This document shows positions 11,718 through 24,101 of a stretch of DNA of 41,332 nucleotides, piece by piece (positions within the stretch are counted from its first letter, which is position 1; each line of letters opens with the position of its first letter). Under the pieces are notes generated by a model. The model had not been told where the DNA came from. It did not search any database and worked only from the letters and a program-made list of their open reading frames with translations. Position numbers and translations under genes: made by a program. Source of the DNA: Pseudomonadota bacterium (GTDB taxonomy: Bacteria > Desulfobacterota > Anaeroferrophillalia > Anaeroferrophillales > Tharpellaceae); assembly GCA_011049115.1 (NCBI GenBank), contig DSCM01000129.1:1-41332 (forward strand), in the 5' to 3' direction.

Positions 11718-12263
11718 ATGATCGACTGCAAACTTCTGCTTGCCGGGCTCGGCGGCCAGGGCGTAGTTTTTCTGTCCCGCCTGATCAGCCAGGCGGCCCT
11801 GCTGAACGGAGACAGCTTTATCACTTATGAAAGCCATGGCATGGCCATGCGGGGGGGCTCCGTAACCAGTCAGGTTAAAATCGGAAACTACCGCTCTCCT
11901 CTGATCGGGCGCGGCCAGGCCGACCTCCTTCTGGTCCTGGCCGCGCCCGAATACCTGCGCAACCGGCATTTGCTTCAGGAAAACGGCCAAGCCCTGATCA
12001 ATAGTCCGCTGGCCGCACGGCTTCTGCCGGCCCGAGATTGCTGCGCGGCCACCGAAATCGCGGTGAAAAATGGTCTGCCGCAGGCCGCAAACCTGGTTTT
12101 TGCGGGCTGGCTGGCCGAGCATCCGGCTTTCCCTTACGATTTCACCCTGCTTTGCGAAACGGTCCGAAGCCTGGCTTCCCCTCCCCCTCTGGAAGCCGCC
12201 AATCTCAAGGCCCTGGACCTTGGTCGGCGATCAGGAGCAAAAAGCACGCCGCCGGGCCGGTAA
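11718..12263 (+). CDS. iorB: Indolepyruvate:ferredoxin oxidoreductase beta subunit IorB
   Basis: The gamma-type domain partner of IorA, forming the IorAB complex. It shows LLLAGLGGQGVVFLSRLISQAA at the N-terminus and the family signature SHGMAMRGGSVTSQVKIG, then SPLIGRGQADLLLVL. 181 aa, slightly short of the usual 190-200, ending in a low-similarity Ser/Lys-rich tail. The ATG at 11718 has GGGGG 7 nt upstream; the longer open frame upstream overlaps iorA and is not credible. The gene ends only 22 bp from the convergent CBS-ACT gene with no clear terminator between them. Confidence 0.93.
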   Translation: MIDCKLLLAGLGGQGVVFLSRLISQAALLNGDSFITYESHGMAMRGGSVTSQVKIGNYRSPLIGRGQADLLLVLAAPEYLRNRHLLQENGQALINSPLAARLLPARDCCAATEIAVKNGLPQAANLVFAGWLAEHPAFPYDFTLLCETVRSLASPPPLEAANLKALDLGRRSGAKSTPPGR

Positions 12264-22174: not shown

Positions 22175-22207
22175 AAAAGCCCGACCAGAAATGGTCGGGC
22201 TTTTTTT
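22175..22207 (+). terminator. Rho-independent terminator after porin
   Basis: GCCCGACC (22179-22186), 6-nt loop, GGTCGGGC (22193-22200), then seven T. The stem can be extended by AAAA/TTTT. A textbook intrinsic terminator. Confidence 0.95.
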
Positions 22208-22316: not shown

Positions 22317-24101
22317 ATGCCGAACATGATTAGACTCAGAAGAACCTGTCCCGCGGCGCTGTTGATTTTCAGCCTTTTTCTGTTCGAAACCGCGTTGGGA
22401 GCCTCGAATCCCTGGCAGGAATTAACGCAGACCATCAGATATCGTCTCAACCCCGGCAATCTATCAGTCGGGCGACTTGATGTGATTCAGGGCACGACCG
22501 CCATCCTGTCGCTCACGGATCCGCAGATCAGTGTTGGCGCGACCCTGGCGGTCAAGGGCAACAGCCTGCCGGGAGTCCCGTTGTCCCTGCAGGACAACCT
22601 GGCCCGCATCCAGGTTACGCAAATCAGCGGCAACCAGGCCCGGGGCACAATTCTTCCGGGCTCACAAAAGATTTTCCCCGGAGCGCCCCTGTTTCCACTG
22701 GCGCACAACCGAGTCTACCTCTACAGCAATCTTACCGCGCCGCAGGATCTGCCCTGTTACCTCGATCTGACCCGCGCTCTGCAGGCGAACCAGATTCCTT
22801 ACGCCGTCATGCACAAAGCCCAGATCGGCGCTGGTGAAACTCCGGGGATTCGCCCCCTGATCATCGCTCTGGAAGCCGCCGGCTCCATGCTTTTTTGCCG
22901 TCTAACCGATCGCGAGCAGAATATTTTTTATCAGAACCGTTTCGCCCTGGGCTGGGCGCCTCCCATAAGCCATCCGGCGGGAATTCAATTCACGCTCACC
23001 TCGACATCCGGTAGCGCCTCTGACCCTGAAGGCAGATCCTTCACTCAGGCCTCGGGACCGGCTCCCGGCTCTCAGCCGGCGGGTAAGATTGAACTCAAGA
23101 ACCCCTACAAACGCTTGGTTTTTGCCGATTGGGACCAGCACCCCGGACAGGAACTTGTTCTTTTAAATGAACAATGGCTGGAAATCTACCGCCTAGACGA
23201 CCAGCCCAAGCTGGTCCCGCTTGGACGTTTTCGCCTGCCTTATAACGACGCCATTCCTCTGCACCTTCACGCCGGAGATTTCAACCACAACGGCAGAGAC
23301 GAACTCTATGTCACCCTTGGCCGACCGAAGACCGTCGATAACAAAAAGGATACCGCGCTTTATTCCCTGATCGTCGAAAACCAGGGAACTAAAATCGCGC
23401 TCCTCGGCAAAGACTACCCCTACTATTTTCGCGTACTTGAACTGCGAGACGGCAAGCGGGTGCTGCTGGCCCAGGAGATGGGCGCATTCAAGCAGTACCA
23501 GGTACCGATTCACTGGGGAGGTTTCTTTCAGGGCAGGTTTTCGGTCCGCAACCAGTTCCGCCAGGCTCGGGATGTGTTTTCCATCTACAATTTCACACTG
23601 AACCCTTTTAACGAAAATCAGCTTCTGATCATCGATGAACAGGGCAACTTGGCTGGATTTAATGCCGAAAGCTCCGAAATGTTGGTCAGTTGCGACCAAC
23701 ATTTCGGAGCTTTCGATGAGACCATCTACCTGCAGAAACTTGCTAAAACCGTCTATGAAGGCGGCTTTTCGATTACCAAAACTGCTGAGATACGCTATGC
23801 CGCCCGCCGCTTTGTCATGCGCAACAGCTATGGCCGGCAGAGTTTTCTGATCAAAAAGGAAAGGGTCGTGAACCCGGGGCTGGTGGATAAGGGCATCGGC
23901 CTGATTATCGATGACAAGATCAAATATGATCAGATTATCGGGGTTCAATGGCAGGCCGGAGAGATGCGCGAATCCTGGCGTTCGCCCCGATTTCCGCGTG
24001 ACATTGTCGACTTCGGCTTTACCCAGAAAGAAAATCAGGAAGTCATGGTTGTCCTGACCCGTAACCAAAACGGCAAATACGCCTTGGAGTTGCTCAACTA
24101 A
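22317..24101 (+). CDS. Exported protein with FG-GAP-like repeats, unknown function
   Basis: 594 aa with a Sec signal peptide (RRTCPAALLIFSLFLFETALG, cleavage before ASNPW). Residues about 45-130 form a small beta-rich module (VGRLDVIQGTTAILSL ... QISGNQARGTI ... GAPLF) that resembles FlgT C-terminal-like modules. Residues about 270-560 look like a beta-propeller of FG-GAP/VCBS type: FADWDQHPGQELVLLN, then HAGDFNHNGRDELYVTL. No catalytic motif was recognised. Residues about 450-467 are encoded by a perfect 22-bp inverted repeat (23666-23715). The ribosome site is weak (AGAG 3 nt before ATG); ATG 22326 is also possible. The cupin gene follows by 17 bp. Confidence 0.75.
   Translation: MPNMIRLRRTCPAALLIFSLFLFETALGASNPWQELTQTIRYRLNPGNLSVGRLDVIQGTTAILSLTDPQISVGATLAVKGNSLPGVPLSLQDNLARIQVTQISGNQARGTILPGSQKIFPGAPLFPLAHNRVYLYSNLTAPQDLPCYLDLTRALQANQIPYAVMHKAQIGAGETPGIRPLIIALEAAGSMLFCRLTDREQNIFYQNRFALGWAPPISHPAGIQFTLTSTSGSASDPEGRSFTQASGPAPGSQPAGKIELKNPYKRLVFADWDQHPGQELVLLNEQWLEIYRLDDQPKLVPLGRFRLPYNDAIPLHLHAGDFNHNGRDELYVTLGRPKTVDNKKDTALYSLIVENQGTKIALLGKDYPYYFRVLELRDGKRVLLAQEMGAFKQYQVPIHWGGFFQGRFSVRNQFRQARDVFSIYNFTLNPFNENQLLIIDEQGNLAGFNAESSEMLVSCDQHFGAFDETIYLQKLAKTVYEGGFSITKTAEIRYAARRFVMRNSYGRQSFLIKKERVVNPGLVDKGIGLIIDDKIKYDQIIGVQWQAGEMRESWRSPRFPRDIVDFGFTQKENQEVMVVLTRNQNGKYALELLN
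23666..23715. repeat. Perfect 22-bp inverted repeat inside a coding sequence
   Basis: The 22 bases at 23666-23687 are exactly complementary to those at 23694-23715, separated by the 6-nt loop AGTTGC. Mismatches begin immediately outside (C/A at 23665/23716). There is no T-run after it, so it is not a terminator. The reading frame passes through without a stop, encoding AESSEMLVSCDQHFGAFDE. Confidence 0.97.

Follow-up and report, generated by a model that had tools for sequence, protein, structure and literature searches.

The perfect 22-bp inverted repeat at 23666-23715 is probably a mutational scar, left in ordinary coding DNA when a quasi-palindrome was corrected by template switching during replication. 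No other perfect inverted repeat in the window (the whole 41,332-nt stretch of DNA that was analysed) is longer, and this one lies within a protein-coding gene. The features concerned are:

22317..24101, + strand: host gene, encoding a 594-residue protein with an apparent signal peptide, a weak FG-GAP-like match, and homologues and conserved neighbours in relatives
23666..23687, + strand: left arm of the perfect inverted repeat, CGAAAGCTCCGAAATGTTGGTC; encodes ESSEMLV (residues 451-457), with one extra base
23688..23693, + strand: loop of 6 nt, AGTTGC; residues S458 and C459
23694..23715, + strand: right arm of the perfect inverted repeat, GACCAACATTTCGGAGCTTTCG; encodes DQHFGAF (residues 460-466), with one extra base

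Position of the repeat within its host gene

As the original prediction stated, the two arms are exactly complementary (22 of 22 positions) across the 6-nt loop, and the reading frame passes through them undisturbed. The repeat occupies residues 450-467 of the open reading frame, A[ESSEMLV]SC[DQHFGAF]D, and the codons of the left arm pair in register with those of the right arm. The ORF is a genuine gene, judging by its homologues and by the neighbours that it has kept in relatives. Homologues of the protein (38-64% identity) were found in the family and the order, and several relatives share the gene order Xaa-Pro peptidase-like, porin-like, host protein, cupin/mannose-6-phosphate isomerase, GMP (nucleotidyl transferase) and lipoprotein-like. 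The N-terminus of the host protein resembles a signal peptide when judged by eye and its FG-GAP-like match falls below the cutoff; searches of NCBIfam and PDB with the protein returned no match. Separately, a 13-bp stem (AAAAGCCCGACCA/TGGTCGGGCTTTT) at 22175-22204, located 3′ of the porin-like gene, is likely a bidirectional terminator.

The expectation that such a repeat would be very unlikely to arise by chance was confirmed. About 2e-6 inverted repeats with arms of at least 22 bp and loops of at most 60 nt are expected by chance in 367 kb, and synonymous-codon shuffling of 395 sampled genes (60 shuffles) never produced arms of 17 bp or more. An intrinsic terminator was rejected for the 22-bp stem because, as the original prediction had also noted, it is followed on its 3′ side by ATGAGACCA rather than by a T-run.

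The quasi-palindrome in homologues and the changes private to the query

The protein family conserves the residues K-N-S-E on the left of the site and F/Y-G-V-F on the right. Possible codons for these residues, AAA AAC TCC GAA and TTC GGA GTT TTT, are reverse complements, and this complementarity between the codons of the conserved residues gives most homologues an imperfect palindrome. At this centre 6-13 of 21 positions are complementary in the homologues (mean 10; 10-13 in most of the family) compared with a mean of about 5.8 of 21 at other centres, and the repeat centre ranks 6 of the 2574 centre/loop combinations in the C-terminal part. Perfect runs at the site in relatives reach up to 8 bp, the 8-bp run of G006 falling in the outer stem. 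The quasi-palindrome at this site has its origin in the protein sequence. The possibility raised earlier, that homologues conserve the same nucleotides through plain codon constraint, therefore holds for the quasi-palindrome but does not extend to its perfect version.

It had been proposed that inserted or uniquely changed residues around positions 450-467 would point to insertion or template switching. Alignment of this region revealed private substitutions and no inserted residues. Residues 440-476 were aligned with 14 homologues, including the paralogue C112 from the same genome, and because all of them align across the repeat without a gap, its letters must have been substituted rather than inserted. 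At alignment columns 5/52 and 9/48, and in the query alone, both sides of an A-U pair have been replaced to give G-C. Compared with the codons most frequent in the family, the first of these paired changes sets a K-to-E replacement against a silent TTT-to-TTC change, and the second sets an N-to-S replacement against V to A. Private residues account for 5 of the 16 residues in 451-466 against a background of 11% in the C-terminal region, and they occur in both arms. Nucleotide identity to the homologues is 0.60 in the left arm and 0.59 in the right arm, with an average of 0.67; both arms are thus slightly more diverged than average and neither is clearly the overwritten one, a point that counts against template switching at this site. 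The changes were judged against living homologues, none of the searched genomes being from the same genus. Protein identity to the closest relatives reaches only about 64%, too low to assign the event to a short branch.

The imperfect repeat in homologues, the ungapped alignment, the private paired changes and the genome-wide excess of short-loop repeats described below all support a quasi-palindrome mutation, which was one of the options originally listed. According to this model, the codon-driven imperfect inverted repeat present in most homologues would be the starting state. A nascent strand would fold back on the quasi-palindrome, or invade the sister strand, and the polymerase would copy one arm from the other before switching back, leaving the arms perfectly complementary while length and frame stay unchanged. 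One or a few such events, together with point changes carried from arm to arm, would generate the paired private changes, and either arm could have served as the template. The protein would tolerate these changes, and the hairpin would need no function of its own. Point mutations arising one by one, combined with selection for pairing, would lead to a similar end state.

Quasi-palindrome mutations of E. coli have been reported to perfect a palindrome by a templated route (PMC6357072, PMC7202029). In the thyA hotspot and the lacZ QP5/QP6 reporters, as here, an imperfect repeat with a short spacer becomes perfect within coding DNA as one arm templates the other; however, those systems remove a 4-bp frameshift and the reporter has 18-bp arms, whereas the substitutions here are length-neutral, the arms measure 22 bp and only the end state is seen, over a long divergence. 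Homogenisation of inverted-repeat arms has been documented in natural coding cases in yeast (PMC8604942), and the Saccharomyces cerevisiae genes resemble the present one in their perfect coding repeats, multinucleotide arm changes and amino-acid replacements, although their arms (7-16 bp) are shorter and the changes could be polarised by close strains, in place of relatives at about 64% identity. A further proposal is that RNA stems originate and persist by template switching, through compensatory-looking double changes that a single event can make (PMC8794818), as may have happened here, but those stems belong to functional RNAs whereas the pairing at 23666-23715 is unconserved. Coding palindromes in nematomorph mitochondria (PMC6649704) are likewise perfect, compatible with the codons of protein genes and built with second codon positions paired (the phase 2 repeats of that paper); they are numerous and reach 284 bp, lengths not encountered here. 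If the proposed origin is correct, the repeat is a clear example from nature of a quasi-palindrome made by protein sequence and then perfected by replication, and residue changes produced in this way could be misread as positive selection or as an RNA element.

Alternative origins of the perfect repeat

A species-specific hairpin maintained by selection, acting either in the mRNA (as an RNase III site, by pausing ribosomes or by protecting a processed end) or as a palindrome bound by a protein, would account for the very high stability of the stem (its core at -40 kcal/mol, RNA z-score -7.4), and 22 mismatch-free pairs do imply youth or upkeep. We nevertheless regard this explanation as unlikely. 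A comparable hairpin was found at the same place in none of 13 homologues; the RNA of the G019 homologue is more stable than its own synonymous shuffles, but by different pairs. When the 22 pairs of the query were scored on the homologues alone, 65.7% of cells paired compared with at most 52% in slid registers, yet covariation among the homologues was absent (254 of 500 partner shuffles scored as high). Because this in-register excess comes without covariation, the pairing in homologues appears to be passive, a product of the amino acids. Furthermore, Rfam gave no match in the window, the stem sits 390 nt upstream of the host gene's stop codon and lacks terminator features, and the genome holds no second copy. 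A conserved cis-regulatory RNA hairpin was rejected on the absence of both comparable hairpins and covariation, and the same results leave the suggested RNase III or RNA-control site without support.

Fold-back artefacts are known from amplification methods, and the genome is a fragmented, metagenome-type assembly of 143 contigs, so the palindrome might be absent from the organism itself. An artefact of assembly or amplification, also considered in the original prediction, is however improbable: a chimera formed by fold-back would usually lengthen or shorten the sequence, whereas the reading frame, the length and the alignment are undisturbed on either side of the repeat, the arms differ from the homologues by plausible substitutions, and other genes hold similar repeats that also preserve the frame.

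It is very improbable that codon constraint and chance suffice, with the protein sequence supplying most of the pairing and drift the rest. The homologue average is already 10 of 21 pairs. Yet with the query's own residues taken as given, the probability of reaching perfect pairing by codon usage alone is 1.9e-5, and no shuffle of the sampled genes reached 17 bp.

Copies of the repeat were sought at several scales. Allowing up to 3 mismatches, a search of the query genome for the arm recovered, besides both arms, only one weak 18-mer with 3 mismatches, while a different palindrome serving as positive control, GGGGGACATAATACTTATTT, gave seven matches. Among 59 relatives there was only one single-arm match, with 2 mismatches, and an exact 20-mer of the arm was absent from a collection of 84,980 species, in which the window's own record was possibly left out. 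The 11-bp core occurs as a palindrome in four records of unrelated bacteria and in one viral contig. An inserted palindromic mobile element of the REP-like or Rickettsia type, which the repeat recalls in its size, its palindromic form and its in-frame position, can thus be dismissed almost entirely: there is no insertion relative to the 14 homologues and no further copy in the genome, the relatives, the species collection or the viral contigs searched. The control palindrome itself belongs to a dispersed family with seven genome matches within 2 mismatches, and a 27-bp perfect palindrome of this kind, close to the end of a contig (L044 14503-14560), may be a REP-like element or one associated with a transposon.

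Short-loop repeats across the genome and Exonuclease I

Perfect inverted repeats were counted in 399 kb of genes sampled from the query genome, with the first 80 codons dropped, and compared with synonymous shuffles. Genes were called by a simple longest-ORF rule, and those of E. coli and the relatives were likewise a sample. For arms of at least 10 bp and loops of 3-10 nt, the query genes contained 28 perfect repeats against 4.2-4.5 in shuffled genes, and the excess faded with loop length (7 observed and 6.1 expected at loops of 46-60 nt); this concentration at short loops is the geometry that fold-back predicts. The relatives G005, G006, G009 and G016 (511 kb) displayed a weaker excess, 13 against 4.8 expected, whereas the sampled E. 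coli K-12 genes (201 kb) had none against 1.7 expected. G041 and further genomes of the phylum likewise showed some excess. The difference between the query genome and its relatives is modest and only suggestive (one-sided p of about 0.008, 0.16 and 0.035 for arms of at least 10, 11 and 12 bp, respectively). The query count includes some repeats that are not truly coding (a spurious ORF containing the CIRCE site, a repeat at the end of an arginase gene and an ORF of L056 without a Pfam match), which are few relative to the size of the excess, and by Pfam the genes that host the longer repeats are mostly real (CysS, MreB, ThiD2-ThiE, RNA polymerase beta′, histidine kinases and others).

A ThiD2-ThiE fusion gene carries a 15-bp perfect repeat with a loop of 5 nt (L055 762-796). 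One arm has changed from the S-x-G-I of most close relatives to A-I-E-S while the other retains the family sequence, making this the clearest template-switch footprint found, with an overwritten arm plainer than at 23666-23715. CysS contains a 13-bp repeat that is imperfect in the relative G004, and here too one arm looks rewritten. In the CysS sequences of relatives, in-frame stops appear, where shown, at query residues 14-15, near the N-terminal end of the match, and probably lie upstream of the true start.

Laranjo et al. are said to have reported in 2017 that Exonuclease I aborts template switching in E. coli. The enzyme was not detected in the query genome or in any of 25 relatives, and among 14 control genomes it was found in E. 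coli only. Loss of SbcD, RecJ or ExoVII was rejected as a cause of the repeat excess, all three being present in the query genome. The association between the absence of Exonuclease I and the repeat excess is a correlation only, and because the whole family is without the enzyme its absence cannot explain why the query genome exceeds its relatives. Template switching itself is an established mechanism; the interest lies in the excess across the lineage, and the counts suggest a process seemingly common in this lineage and absent from the sampled E. coli genes. We tentatively raise the possibility, though we consider it less likely than not, that a standing genome-wide rise in template switching, with no Exonuclease I found and perhaps with other factors, keeps perfecting codon-driven quasi-palindromes in the genes of this lineage. 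Multi-residue changes would then be a regular source of variation, and the 22-bp palindrome would be the longest example in the sample. A testable hypothesis is that perfect short-loop repeats build up in the genes of bacteria without Exonuclease I.

Other inverted repeats were noted. At 11905-11950 a perfect 15-bp GC-rich repeat with a 16-nt loop lies in an ORF resembling the second subunit of indolepyruvate ferredoxin oxidoreductase, and it probably represents a further coding repeat like the one at 23666-23715. An intergenic 25-bp perfect palindrome with a loop of 4 nt and no T-run is present at L053 5950-6003. Finally, an exact CIRCE-type operator (TTAGCACTC-N9-GAGTGCTAA) at 970-1004 stands just upstream of the minus-strand gene 1-963, which is cut by the window edge and whose product resembles the heat-shock repressor HrcA, an ordinary autoregulated heat-shock arrangement.
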